Below are positions 3,891-54,957 of a stretch of 64,000 bases of DNA, piece after piece (position 1 is the first letter of the stretch; the number at the start of each line of letters is the position of its first letter). This DNA is from Mariniflexile fucanivorans (GTDB lineage Bacteria > Bacteroidota > Bacteroidia > Flavobacteriales > Flavobacteriaceae), in NCBI RefSeq assembly GCF_004341235.1, contig NZ_SLUP01000004.1, positions 124,001 through 188,000 of the forward strand, written 5' to 3'. Under the pieces are notes generated by a model. The model was not told the origin of the DNA and did no database searches. It saw nothing but the letters and a program-made list of their open reading frames with translations. Made by a program: the position numbers and the translations under genes.

Positions 3891-4039
3891 GGGCGTTACC
3901 CTAAAGGGTCGGGCTTTCCGCTATATCTTTTTAAAATGTCATTGCGAGGACGTAGGACGTGGCAATCTGCCAATTTTAAGTTCTCACCATGTTGTTTTTA
4001 CACAAATTTTAAAAAGGATGCCGCTACAATCCCTAACGC
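3891..4039. repeat. Modular GGGCGTT...CCCTAAC intergenic element, copy 1
   Basis: Ordered blocks are GGGCGTTACC, a small hairpin CCTAAAGG, GGTCGGGCTTTCCGCTATA, TCTTTT, an interruption, AAAAAGGATG, and CCGCTACAATCCCTAACGC. The same blocks in the same order occur at 16299-16410 with different hairpins between them. The interruption (3937-3969) is a half-copy of the neighbouring CGTCATTGCG repeat, so one repeat sits inside another. I recall similar sequences between genes in other Bacteroidetes, but I do not know a name or function for them. Confidence 0.7.
3937..3969 (+). repeat. Half-copy of the GTCATTGCGA repeat nested in another repeat
   Basis: It begins TGTCATTGCGAG and ends GTGGCAATCTG, matching the left half of the element at 3784-3871. 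The right half is absent. It occupies the variable loop of the GGGCGTT element. Confidence 0.65.
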
Positions 4040-4046
4040 AAAAACA

Positions 4047-4072
4047 AAAAAGAGGCTATAAAGCCTCTTTTT
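4047..4072 (-). terminator. Terminator after rpsO
   Basis: Perfect stem AAAAGAGGC/GCCTCTTTT with loop TATAAA, flanked by A and T runs, two bases from the rpsO stop codon on the minus strand. It should limit read-through from rpsO into pnp. Confidence 0.85.
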
Positions 4073-4073
4073 C

Positions 4074-4343
4074 TTATTTTCTTAATCCTAATTCTTTTAC
4101 TATCGCACGATATCTTAAGATATCTTTCTTAGTTAAGTAATCTAGTAAGCTTCTTCTTTTACCTACCAATTTCACTAAAGAGCGCTCAGTATTATAATCT
4201 TTACGATTCTTTTTTAAATGCTCTGTTAAGTGGTTAATTCTGTAAGTGAATAATGCAATTTGTCCTTCTGCAGAACCTGTGTCTTTTGCATCTTTACCAT
4301 GTTTTGTAAAGATGGTCTCTTTTTCTTTTTGATCTAAATACAT
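4074..4343 (-). CDS. rpsO: 30S ribosomal protein S15
   Basis: S15 binds 16S rRNA early in assembly of the small subunit. The 89 residues match the family length exactly. The conserved segments TGSAEGQIALFTYRINHLTEHL and SLVKLVGKRRSLLDYL are present (given here in part: TGSAEGQIA, LVGKRRSLL). It precedes pnp on the same strand. A good promoter of the Bacteroidetes type lies about 55 bases upstream (4398-4427, minus strand). Confidence 0.98.
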   Translation of the reverse strand: MYLDQKEKETIFTKHGKDAKDTGSAEGQIALFTYRINHLTEHLKKNRKDYNTERSLVKLVGKRRSLLDYLTKKDILRYRAIVKELGLRK

Positions 4344-4397
4344 GCTAATATTATTGTAAATAATTGTTATGTAAACGAAAGCCTATCTTTCGAGCGG

Positions 4398-4427
4398 CAA
4401 ATATAGTAATTAAATACGAGTTGGCAA
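4398..4427 (-). promoter_or_regulatory. Promoter of rpsO
   Basis: On the minus strand a TTG (-33 box, 4425-4427) is followed after 19 bases by TATATTTG (4398-4405), which fits the Bacteroidetes -7 consensus TAnnTTTG at the ideal spacing. Confidence 0.7.
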
Positions 4428-18255: not shown

Positions 18256-18519
18256 ATGGGTGGCGAAGGTGCTATGATGGCCGCAAACAATTCGTTAAAA
18301 AACAACAGAAGCCTGCTGGCAAAACGTAAAGAAACCAAAGCTTTGGGAGGGAGTTATTCAACTATTGAATTAAAGAAATTTCCAAAAGCCACGGCAGAGC
18401 AACTTGAAGAAATAAAAAAACGAATCCAAATTAAAAATAAACAAAACAGAGTGCGACAACTTATTGCGACTCTAGTTATCTCAATTCTGGTAATATCATT
18501 CCTGTTATATATTTTTTAA
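18256..18519 (+). CDS. Small membrane protein, conserved in flavobacteria
   Basis: An 87-residue protein opening with MGGEGAMMAANNSLKNNRSL, a basic middle region and one C-terminal membrane helix (LIATLVISILVISFLLYIF). I recognise the MGGEGAMMAANNSLKNNR opening from other flavobacterial genomes but know no function. The topology would put the basic part in the cytoplasm. A composite palindromic element follows directly. Confidence 0.7.
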   Translation: MGGEGAMMAANNSLKNNRSLLAKRKETKALGGSYSTIELKKFPKATAEQLEEIKKRIQIKNKQNRVRQLIATLVISILVISFLLYIF

Positions 18520-18526
18520 TACCCTA

Positions 18527-18658
18527 GAGGCTGTCTAAAAAGTATAATTTTGTGTCATATGGAGCTTGTCGAAATATTTTAGCTTATTAGTAGTCAATAT
18601 TGGTTTCGACAAGCTCAACCTGACAGAGCAACTTCTAAAATACGTTTTAGATAGCCTC
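18527..18658. repeat. Composite palindromic element A (shell plus GAGCTTGTCGAA core)
   Basis: Outer arms GAGGCTGTCTAAAA (18527-18540) and TTTTAGATAGCCTC (18645-18658) pair with one G-T and are followed by TTTTTT, so the shell looks like a terminator. Inside is a second palindrome: TGTCATATGGAGCTTGTCGA (from 18553) against TCGACAAGCTCAACCTGACA (to 18625). The outer arms recur at 51479-51607 with another core. The core recurs at 42090-42149 in another shell. Confidence 0.8.
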
Positions 18659-42050: not shown

Positions 42051-42216
42051 AATCCTTTGGGTATAATTAAAAGTCAATTTTGTACTAATTGTCACATTGA
42101 GCTTGTCGAAATGTTTTTTTATAAAGTCTTCGACAAGCTCAGACTGACATTTGGGTTCTAATTGGCTTATGAATTTCAAATAAAAACTGATTTTGATTGA
42201 TTACACCCAAAGGGTT
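42051..42216. repeat. Composite palindromic element C (CCTTTGGGT shell plus GAGCTTGTCGAA core)
   Basis: Outer arms AATCCTTTGGGTATAATTAA (42051-42070) and TTGATTACACCCAAAGGGTT (42197-42216) pair at 17 of 20 positions. The core, TGTCACATTGAGCTTGTCGA (from 42090) against TCGACAAGCTCAGACTGACA (to 42149), is a second copy of the core of element A. It fills most of the 358-base gap between mnmD and the epimerase gene; the rest shows no gene. Confidence 0.75.
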
Positions 42217-50306: not shown

Positions 50307-51470
50307 ATGCCAAAAATTTTAATAATTGAAGACGAAGCAGCCATAAGACGTGTGCTTGTTAAAATTCTTTCAGAAGAAAACGAATCGTACCAAGTAGAAG
50401 AAGCCGAAGATGGATTGGTTGGTATTGGAAAAATAAAGAACGACGACTACGATTTAGTTCTTTGCGATATAAAAATGCCAAAAATGGATGGTGTAGAGGT
50501 GTTGGAAGCTACCAAGAAAATAAAACCGGAAATCCCAATGGTGATGATTTCTGGCCATGGTGATTTAGATACCGCAGTAAATACCATGCGTTTGGGAGCG
50601 TTTGATTATATATCGAAACCGCCCGATTTAAACCGACTTTTAAACACCGTTAGAAATGCATTAGATAAAAAAGAACTGGTTGTTGAAAATAAATTGCTTA
50701 AAAAGAAAGTGAGCAAAAATTTTGAAATGATTGGTGAAAGTGATGCTATTTCGCATATAAAAGATATTATTGAAAAAGTAGCCCAAACCGATGCTAGAGT
50801 ACTCATTACAGGTCCCAACGGAACAGGAAAAGAGTTGGTAGCACATTGGTTACACCAAAAAAGCGAACGTGCCAATGGCCCCATGATTGAGGTAAACTGT
50901 GCAGCCATACCAAGCGAATTGATAGAAAGTGAACTCTTTGGTCATGTAAAAGGAGCGTTTACAAGTGCTGTAAAGGATAGAGCTGGTAAATTTGAGGCAG
51001 CTAATTCAGGAACTATTTTTTTAGATGAAATAGGCGATATGAGTTTGCCAGCACAAGCAAAAGTACTTCGAGCGTTGCAAGAAAGTCGTATTCAGCGTGT
51101 AGGTAGCGATAAAGACATTAAAGTGAATGTGCGCGTTGTGGCGGCAACCAATAAAGATTTAAAAAAAGAAATTGCAGAAGGTAGGTTTCGTGAGGATTTA
51201 TACCACCGATTAGCCGTTATTTTAATACAAGTGCCTGCGTTAAATGATAGGCGTGATGATATTCCGTTATTGGTGAATCATTTTACCGAAAAAATTGCAG
51301 GCGAACAGGGTACATCGAAAAAAGCATTTTCAGATAAGGCCATTAAATTACTGCAAGATTATGATTGGACAGGCAACATTCGAGAGCTTCGTAATGTAGT
51401 AGAGCGTTTAATTATATTAGGTGGAACCGAAGTAAGCGAACAAGATGTAAAAATGTTTGCTAGTAAATAA
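50307..51470 (+). CDS. Sigma-54-type response regulator lacking a DNA-binding domain
   Basis: A 387-residue protein: receiver domain (1-115, phospho-acceptor Asp54 in LVLCDIKMPKMDG) and AAA+ domain (about 140-370). Walker A is GPNGTGKELVAHWL, the sigma-54 contact loop is GAFTSA, and Walker B is GTIFLDEIGDM. The protein ends at SEQDVKMFASK, so the usual C-terminal Fis-type helix-turn-helix (about 45 residues) is missing. It may act from solution on sigma-54 polymerase. The kinase partner is not adjacent. Confidence 0.92.
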   Translation: MPKILIIEDEAAIRRVLVKILSEENESYQVEEAEDGLVGIGKIKNDDYDLVLCDIKMPKMDGVEVLEATKKIKPEIPMVMISGHGDLDTAVNTMRLGAFDYISKPPDLNRLLNTVRNALDKKELVVENKLLKKKVSKNFEMIGESDAISHIKDIIEKVAQTDARVLITGPNGTGKELVAHWLHQKSERANGPMIEVNCAAIPSELIESELFGHVKGAFTSAVKDRAGKFEAANSGTIFLDEIGDMSLPAQAKVLRALQESRIQRVGSDKDIKVNVRVVAATNKDLKKEIAEGRFREDLYHRLAVILIQVPALNDRRDDIPLLVNHFTEKIAGEQGTSKKAFSDKAIKLLQDYDWTGNIRELRNVVERLIILGGTEVSEQDVKMFASK

Positions 51471-51478
51471 AAAAAATA

Positions 51479-51607
51479 AGGCTTTCTAAAAAGTTAAAAT
51501 AAATCGTCATTACGAACGTAGTGAAGTAATCTGATTATTGATTTTCAATAACTTAATGATCGCTTCGTTTCTTGAAATGACGTAGAACTACACTTTTAGA
51601 TAGCCTC
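51479..51607. repeat. Composite palindromic element B (same shell as A, different core)
   Basis: Outer arms AGGCTTTCTAAAAAGT (51479-51494) and ACTTTTAGATAGCCT (51592-51606) match those of element A (18527-18658). The core differs: CGTCATTACGAACGTAGTGA (from 51505) against CGCTTCGTTTCTTGAAATGA and CG (to 51582), which belongs to the 3784-3871 repeat family. Both A and B lie just after the stop of a + strand gene. Confidence 0.78.
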
Positions 51608-51625: not shown

Positions 51626-52363
51626 TTAGTTACAAGAATTTAATTCAGATAAATAATTTGAAGCTAAACTCTTTAAATTATTCACATAATATTGTTTAAG
51701 GTCTTCAATACTTTTGTTCGAAGTGTCTTCTAAATTATCAGTATTTGTGATGGTTTTATGGTTGCAATCACAACTTTTTAAAGTTTCATTATAAGATTTA
51801 ATATTCGAAGCGATAAGGGTTTTATAATTCAAGATTAACTGTTCTTTTTTAAGAAGTATTTCTTGTTCTTTCTGTTCTGCCAACTTTCCTTTAATTTCAG
51901 CTTCCTTAAGCTTTAAGGTTTCTTGTTGTTGTTTCAGTTTCAACTGTTCTTTTTCCAAATCGTTAAGCATTTGGTTATTTGCCGTACTTGAAGTAGAGGT
52001 GCCGGCAGTACATTTTTCAATAGCAATCACACTTTCTTTACTAATATCCCTGCCTTGTTTCACAAAAAACCGTCCGTCTTCATACGTTTTAGCATCTTCT
52101 ACTTTAGCTAATAAAATAATGGCTTTATCAGTAAATTCCAAAGCAGTTTCGCAGCCACAACCAGTTAAAGGTTTCTTTGAAAGTTTTAACGACTCAACCG
52201 ATCTGTTTGCATAATACTTTAAATGGCTGATATTATTGGCATCGTAAGATGATTTTACATGTGAGTAGGCACTCACTAAATAATAGTTGGCATCGTCACA
52301 TACCGTTTGGCCGTTAACAGTTATTGAAATAATAAAAATAAAAAAAAGGTAAAAGTGTTTCAT
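51626..52363 (-). CDS. Exported coiled-coil protein
   Basis: A 245-residue protein with a signal peptide (cleavage after TVNG) and a long coiled coil (about 130-180: EKEQLKLKQQQETLKLKEAE). Eight cysteines occur in the mature part, including GCGCE and SCDCN, which could form disulphides or bind metal. No family was recognised. It stands alone. Confidence 0.7.
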   Translation of the reverse strand: MKHFYLFFIFIISITVNGQTVCDDANYYLVSAYSHVKSSYDANNISHLKYYANRSVESLKLSKKPLTGCGCETALEFTDKAIILLAKVEDAKTYEDGRFFVKQGRDISKESVIAIEKCTAGTSTSSTANNQMLNDLEKEQLKLKQQQETLKLKEAEIKGKLAEQKEQEILLKKEQLILNYKTLIASNIKSYNETLKSCDCNHKTITNTDNLEDTSNKSIEDLKQYYVNNLKSLASNYLSELNSCN

Positions 52364-54825: not shown

Positions 54826-54863
54826 ATGACAAGTGACAATTAACAATTGACAATTAACACCTT

Positions 54864-54957
54864 AAAACCCAAAACCCAAAACCCAAAACCCAAAACCCAA
54901 AACCCAAAACCCAAAACCAACAACCAAAAACCAAAAACCAAAAACCAAAAACCAAAA
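54864..54957 (+). repeat. Seven-base tandem repeat, AAAACCC then AAAAACC
   Basis: Seven perfect copies of AAAACCC (54864-54912), a short break, then four copies of AAAAACC and a variant, all in a 7-base period. It lies between the M28 and DinB genes, just before the DinB ATG. A related C-rich run follows at 48005-48040. Confidence 0.9.

Follow-up and report, generated by a model that had tools for sequence, protein, structure and literature searches.

Palindromic gene-end elements with a common outer shell and variable REP-like cores in Mariniflexile fucanivorans and other Bacteroidota

Two palindromes of about 130 bases in the genome of Mariniflexile fucanivorans have the same outer ends and different interiors. 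They raise the question of how one shell comes to enclose more than one core. Both lie in a stretch of 64,000 nucleotides, referred to here as the window, which corresponds to contig C4:124001-188000 of the 4.74-Mb genome (G000); the congener genomes compared with it are G001-G005. The features concerned are given below, without a strand where none applies.

18256-18519, + strand: 87-aa ORF for a small protein that is hydrophobic over a stretch near its C-terminus; its end lies 8 bases ahead of the element 1 shell; matched in G004 and G005, no match in G001-G003
18527-18658: composite element 1, shell plus core A (from sequence and fold z; a family A copy)
18528-18543, + strand: left shell arm of element 1, AGGCTGTCTAAAAAGT
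18553-18579, + strand: core A arm 1, a TGTC-tagged REP-like unit
18580-18601: centre of element 1, TAGCTTATTAGTAGTCAATATT (from sequence and the family A consensus centre)
18602-18625, - strand: core A arm 2, inverse, GGTTTCGACAAGCTCAACCTGACA
18642-18657, - strand: right shell arm of element 1, ACGTTTTAGATAGCCT, then CTTTTTT
42071-42168: short relative of core A, a GAGCTTGTCGAA hairpin, in another outer shell ('shell 2', AAGTCAATTTTGTA-like)
50307-51470, + strand: gene whose end lies 8 bases ahead of the element 2 shell, matched in all five congeners; we take it, from its sequence rather than a family search, to encode a sigma-54-type response regulator
51478-51607: composite element 2, shell plus core B (51479-51607 in the initial annotation)
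51479-51494, + strand: left shell arm of element 2, AGGCTTTCTAAAAAGT
51505-51533, + strand: core B arm 1, a CGTC-tagged REP-like unit
51534-51557: centre of element 2, ATTATTGATTTTCAATAACTTAAT, resembling the family A centre
51558-51582, - strand: core B arm 2, inverse
51592-51606, - strand: right shell arm of element 2, ACTTTTAGATAGCCT, then CATTTT (a weak T-run)
51626-52363, - strand: convergent gene with its stop 19 bases from element 2

Measured from shell to shell, element 1 spans 130 bp (18528-18657) and element 2 spans 128 bp (51479-51606). Both are long imperfect palindromes with matching ends. The shell arm AGGCTNTCTAAAA has exactly four matches without mismatch in the 64-kb window, all within these two elements. 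If up to two mismatches are allowed, the count rises to 22, where 12.9 would be expected and 1 of 100 shuffles reaches 22, so that only the exact ones are informative. The folding z-scores on the + and - strands are -7.6 and -6.5 for element 1 and -4.8 and -5.8 for element 2, each beating 200 of 200 shuffles on both strands. Core A occupies 18553-18625 and consists of TGTCATATGGAGCTTGTCGAAATATTT with its inverse; core B, at 51505-51582, consists of CGTCATTACGAACGTAGTGAAGTAATCTG with its inverse. The centres are related, the score of the element 2 centre against the family A consensus centre being reached by none of 2000 shuffles, and the difference between the two elements therefore lies mainly in the arms between shell and centre. 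The initial annotation had described two palindromes with matching outer arms directly after the stop codon of a + strand gene, and this description holds at both positions, where the shell starts 8 bases past the stop. Its assignment of the inner palindromes to two families needs qualification: the cores do differ, but they are not wholly unrelated, as they have a related centre and a common layout of CGTC/TGTC-tagged REP dimers.

Both elements belong to a family built on a plan of about 129 bp: a shell of 16 bp, AGGCTGTCTRAAAAGT on one side and its inverse on the other, encloses two REP-like arms in inverted orientation, and these flank an AT-rich centre. Counted by hand among fetched loci, and not exhaustively, the M. 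fucanivorans genome has 47 shell elements: 38 with core A, six with a clear and two with a decayed core B, and one nearly coreless. A strict pattern for shell pairs is matched by 13 elements and its reversed control by 0, so the arm pairing is not due to chance. The core A pattern alone returns 38 palindromes, 31 long (including element 1) and seven short, two of the latter (C8:85400, C8:85597) being left out of the fetched loci. A shell is recognisable in 30 of the 31 long palindromes (the exception is L131), and L120, from the shell-pair pattern, brings the number to 31; five looser copies (L147, L151, L152, L154, L156), C4:374735 (by script) and C6:110118 (by eye) make up the total of 38. 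Core B occurs with the shell in element 2 and L139-L143, and with decayed arms in L144 and L145. L157 is a 43-bp shell with almost nothing inside. The GAGC loop of one core A arm is replaced in L147 and L151 by a small TCCCGATA..TATCGGGA-like hairpin, and these one-arm inserts are not symmetric swaps.

Relatives of both cores exist apart from this shell. Those of core A are short and sit in a different shell; those of core B were found without one. Shell 2 (AAGTCAATTTTGTA...) surrounds the short core A hairpin at 42071-42168 of the window and in copies L164-L167, and one more copy, with a TCCCGATAGCTATCGGGA insert, stands opposite a shell-1 element of G001. At 54834-54957 of the window, units resembling CCCAAAA/CCAAAAA form an array that looks telomere-like.

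A third core, C, is found within the shell in congeners, and cores A, B and C are all inverted dimers. The outer arm tags, read by eye, are CGTC in most copies of core B and TGTC in most copies of cores A and C, in agreement with the tag of the CGTC REP superfamily. Judged by eye against the REP stem definition (8-9 bp, A/T pairs first, loop of 4-5), core C conforms (ATTCTGAA/TTCAGAAT, with a loop of 5), and the stems of A and B are imperfect. The related centre recurs in several pairs. Its similarity to the family A consensus (23 copies) is reached by 0 of 2000 shuffles for C311, 2 for L143 and 3 for C313, C311 and C313 being two core C copies; L140 (136 of 2000) and L141 (515 of 2000) show no significant similarity, in a comparison made without L139 and L142. 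The motif TGAW..WCA is present in the centre of 24 of 100 non-Chloroflexota elements from other genomes (at least 120 bp, among the matches listed), where shuffled centres give 4.5 with a maximum of 11; it is also present in 10 left and 19 right arms of the same 100. From these results on the centre, part of the family looks like a sandwich of constant shell, variable REP arms and related centre.

The two sides of the shell have also changed together. In the 31 family A copies (L131, without a shell, left out), position 10 of the shell is complementary in 27 (expected 16.4). Outside the shell, base 2 is paired in 29 copies (expected 19.8), as A-T, T-A, C-G or G-C; neither value was reached in 5000 permutations, which ignore relatedness, and related copies inflate the result. 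Outside positions 1, 3 and 4 show no covariation in this family. Among the 116 elements listed from other genomes, 26 of them from one genome, outside positions 1, 2 and 4 covary (1, 0 and 0 of 2000 permutations, with the same inflation by relatedness) and positions 3 and 6 do not.

The elements sit at gene 3' ends. With ORFs called mechanically, 42 of the 47 census elements (L129, L145, L157, C4:374735 and C6:110118 left out) were classified as 25 convergent, 16 tandem and 1 divergent, against 7, 22 and 10 of the 39 gaps in the window, and they are often 5-50 bases from a stop codon. The 106 non-Chloroflexota elements listed from other genomes comprise 49 convergent, 45 tandem and 3 divergent (97 classified), with eight at a locus edge and one overlapping an ORF; the background is 41, 172 and 93 of 306 gaps. 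A gene ends towards 94 of the non-Chloroflexota elements listed, and 85 of these are within 60 bases of its stop codon. It had been proposed that the elements may end transcription. Their 3'-end position and folding are terminator-like, and, judged from sequence, they would serve as bidirectional terminator-like hairpins. Element 2 has only four T after the stem on the + strand. A simple terminator scan lists neither element 1 nor 2, its loop limit of 8 excluding both. Rfam at gathering thresholds over the whole window gives no match at either element and two elsewhere, both on the - strand: Flavo-1 RNA and the S15-Flavobacteria leader (3903-4061, 4341-4405).

The exact shell pattern, a pair of 15-base arms in elements of 100-130 bp only, was run over 84,980 species genomes. 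It matched at least 113 stretches with at least 116 elements, mostly in Bacteroidota and with many different cores. By record title, the 116 listed consist of 105 from Bacteroidota, 10 from Chloroflexota (Chloroploca, Viridilinea) and 1 from a MAG labelled Sulfurovum. Their length is exactly 129 bp in 63 and 127-130 bp in 95, within the 100-130 bp that the pattern allowed. Flavivirga rizhaonensis alone supplies 26 of the 116 among the matches listed and has at least three cores within one shell; when its arms were sought singly, 38 of 47 pairs among the matches listed measured 129 bp and the others 58 to 175. In the same species, versions of 166-177 bp (L405-L408, including the outer G and C) have one core arm that contains an additional nested palindrome around AAACAAAATATATTTTGTTT. 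The early suggestion that one shell accepts different cores is thus borne out in the M. fucanivorans genome (A, B and the 43-bp near-coreless copy), in its congeners, which have A and C, and in Bacteroidota at large. The possibilities that the arms occur nowhere else, or always with the same core, are excluded by the genome-wide and wider pattern searches.

Similar stems might also arise by chance under selection for strong bidirectional terminators, as the A-/T-rich feet and the 3'-end position are typical of any terminator. Such convergence is extremely improbable, given that the 15-base arm pair is exact in at least 113 stretches of many families and that the reversed control pattern has 0 matches across the genus, as in the M. 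fucanivorans genome itself. For the shell sequence it is refuted; for the AT feet it may hold.

An 865-bp IS of Chloroploca links the shell to a transposon. It ends in GAGGCTGTCTGAAAAG / CTTTTCAGACAGCTTC, the same repeat as the shell, and is flanked by TTA. The transposase of this IS is of the IS5 family (NF033580 2.9e-71, PF13340, PF01609), so that a terminal repeat is common to the shell and an IS5-family IS. Exact 3-bp direct repeats (TNA) flank 7 of the 10 Chloroflexota copies listed, a number reached by 1 of 2000 permutations. From the Chloroploca IS and these duplications, the shell is best read as a probable IS5 terminal repeat by descent, with no sign of present IS5 transposition spreading it in the M. 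fucanivorans genome. Being a transposon terminal repeat, as in Chloroflexota, would by itself let several internal sequences use one pair of ends.

The main rival explanation is that the elements are ordinary IS5-family MITEs, in which the shell is the TIR and A, B and C are separate MITEs with a common transposase and a preference for 3' ends. The slot differences described below would then be independent insertions into one hot spot. This account is a genuine possibility, though it is doubted here. As in IS5-family MITEs, the TIR is common with an IS5-family IS and, in Chloroflexota, there is a 3-bp duplication. As far as they were classified, the Chloroflexota copies listed likewise lie at gene 3' ends, three being convergent and three tandem, with another four at the edge of a locus. 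The genome of Viridilinea mediisalina (G008, the genome of L195) has 464 shell-arm matches, a very large expansion that also suits the MITE account. In the other 106 elements listed, 3-bp repeats number 5 against 2.2 expected (19 of 2000 permutations) and 2-bp repeats 9 against 4.6 (2 of 2000), and this slight surplus of 3-bp repeats in Bacteroidota points to some true insertions. However, a 3-bp target duplication is present in 0 of the 31 family A copies of M. fucanivorans, although 23 of these are equal in length and much alike, and the paired flank base is specific to the copy. A Chloroploca-like IS5-type transposase is absent from the 2.38 Mb of fetched sequence, which covers part of the M. 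fucanivorans genome, except for the Chloroploca IS and plasmid records. The IS5 elements in five plasmid records have only a GAGG-like repeat start or less in common with the shell. IS-sized arm pairs, sought in 862 kb of pattern-match loci, amounted to three wide pairs, each joining arms of separate elements. Viral contigs L325-L328 have one exact shell arm each and no recognised IS; L326-L328 have one repeat in common, and L327 has a second arm at about 220 bp with 2 mismatches.

The MITE account is further weakened by the state of the same gene-end slots in sister species. Nine orthologous sites gave 23 script comparisons with two-gene anchors, or 18 after reciprocal and same-site repeats were merged. 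The congener has an ordinary terminator in 10 by script and 1 by eye, the same core flipped in 2, the same shell with another core in 1, a REP-like hairpin without shell 1 in 2 and nothing recognisable in 2. Two further slots with one conserved gene have core A against core B. Where slots were compared, the earlier terminator has disappeared instead of being interrupted. The notion of a preferred target hairpin therefore stands insofar as an ordinary terminator often occupies the same slot, but the old stem has been replaced. One lgt copy was rejected as an orthology anchor, being a paralogue found only in the M. fucanivorans genome among the six of the genus. This second, divergent gene, presumably lgt-like from its sequence, is at G000:C6:87909-88688 beside L128.

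Individual slots illustrate the range of states. At the site of what we take, from its sequence, to be an RNR gene, M. fucanivorans has the shell with core A; G001, G002, G004 and G005 all have the terminator GCACCTC-GATT-GAGGTGC, and G003 has another neighbour gene and another terminator. Opposite element 2 there are ordinary terminators in G002 and G005, a REP-like hairpin without the shell in G001, a decayed shell with core A in G004 (one gene conserved) and nothing recognised in G003. For element 1, an ordinary terminator is present in G005 and none is recognised in G004. The L139 site, with core B, faces ordinary terminators in G005 (by script) and G004 (by eye). At C1:341223, core A in M. 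fucanivorans corresponds to core C within the shell in G001 and to an ordinary terminator in G002; the two shells differ too (position 6, A-T versus G-C), and replacement may thus have involved the entire element instead of the core. At C1:330625, core A is flipped in the G002 shell, and G001 has an ordinary terminator, the feet ACAAAA / TTTTGT agreeing between the G002 element and the G001 terminator. At C4:405380, both M. fucanivorans and G005 have core A, flipped relative to each other. The flips are seen by alignment, at 94% flipped versus 78% unflipped in one case and 84% versus 75% in the second. Among elements of G001, that at C12:126598 has nothing recognisable opposite it in G002, and that at C49:100965 faces a shell-2 hairpin in M. 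fucanivorans. Considering the loci of 11 among 13 congener elements, 4 of the 11 match the site of an M. fucanivorans element (three with both genes, one with one gene), which would be far more than independent random placement would give.

Inverted REP doublets are the unit of spread of REPINs, and the cores might be REP dimers moved by a tyrosine transposase, with the shell as target palindrome. The inverted-dimer arms with CGTC/TGTC tags agree with such REPIN/RAYT spread, as do REP dimers inside palindromes in A. variabilis, T. roseum and H. neapolitanus (PMC3733652, available text). It is nevertheless very unlikely: a REPIN does not include the outer shell, and a search for RAYT (Y1_Tnp, PF01797), limited to the M. 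fucanivorans genome, gave 0 matches there, the control being found in 5 of 14 named genomes.

A parallel is offered by CGTC-tagged REPs, described in the available text of Di Nocera et al. 2013 (PMC3733652) as inverted dimers in convergent or unidirectional gaps near 3' ends, with some dimers in longer palindromes in three species. The elements described here are alike in their CGTC/TGTC tag, inverted dimers, near-3'-end gaps and dimers within palindromes. Unlike that account, as far as available, in which each of three species has one palindrome consensus, one shell recurs here across Bacteroidota with many cores, at a near-fixed length, with a related centre and with core change or inversion at orthologous sites. 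The available portion of that paper does not mention the shell, and no paper on it was found in the open literature (best matches by topic; few subscription journals and preprints). The arm AGGCTGTCTAAAAAG has no exact match in open-access papers; GGCTGTCTGAAAA matches exactly only in an aptamer paper and GGCTGTCTAAAAA only a primer in a Caldicellulosiruptor paper, both in the accessible text.

The explanation preferred here, with moderate confidence, is that these terminator-like hairpins go back to an IS5 TIR and, at fixed slots, undergo turnover of the inner hairpin. The outer 16-bp shell, derived from or homologous to an IS5-family TIR, would form the base of a terminator-like stem with A-/T-rich feet, and a CGTC/TGTC-tagged REP-like dimer around an AT-rich centre would fill it. 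In a given lineage an ordinary intrinsic terminator may be replaced by a shell element, this being the probable direction of replacement. Later the inner hairpin would be replaced by another or inverted, its position relative to the two genes being kept. The exchange may not need new transposition each time but proceed by template switching, or by annealing, between hairpins that resemble each other in feet and arms. The data fit a replaced interior within a hairpin that keeps its feet and its position.

Both matched arm changes and inversions would be expected from template switching at hairpins. In the available text of PMC8604942 and PMC8794818, quasipalindrome template switching predicts matched changes in both arms and an inverted spacer between inverted repeats; both are seen in the shell elements. 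Those papers, as far as accessible, concern local events, whereas here whole inner hairpins would be exchanged between loci. A bolder and rather unlikely extension is that terminator hairpins of Bacteroidota are nested cassettes, in which distant loci exchange interiors through similar feet and arms (a plain stem against a shell, two different REP pairs against each other, or a forward against an inverted interior). Both arms would then change at once while position, length and centre are kept, and CGTC REPs would spread in this way inside IS5-derived shells.

REP dimers within palindromes and the 3'-end bias of REPs are already known; the turnover at slots, the related centre and the IS5 link appear to be new. 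No dedicated transposase is known for CGTC-type REPs (PMC3733652, available text). Units of this type sit here in a shell that, in another phylum, ends an IS5 element, and sister species fill one and the same gene-end slot with a plain terminator, with differing cores or with a core turned round. Together these two observations make terminator turnover and REP spread testable by strain comparison.
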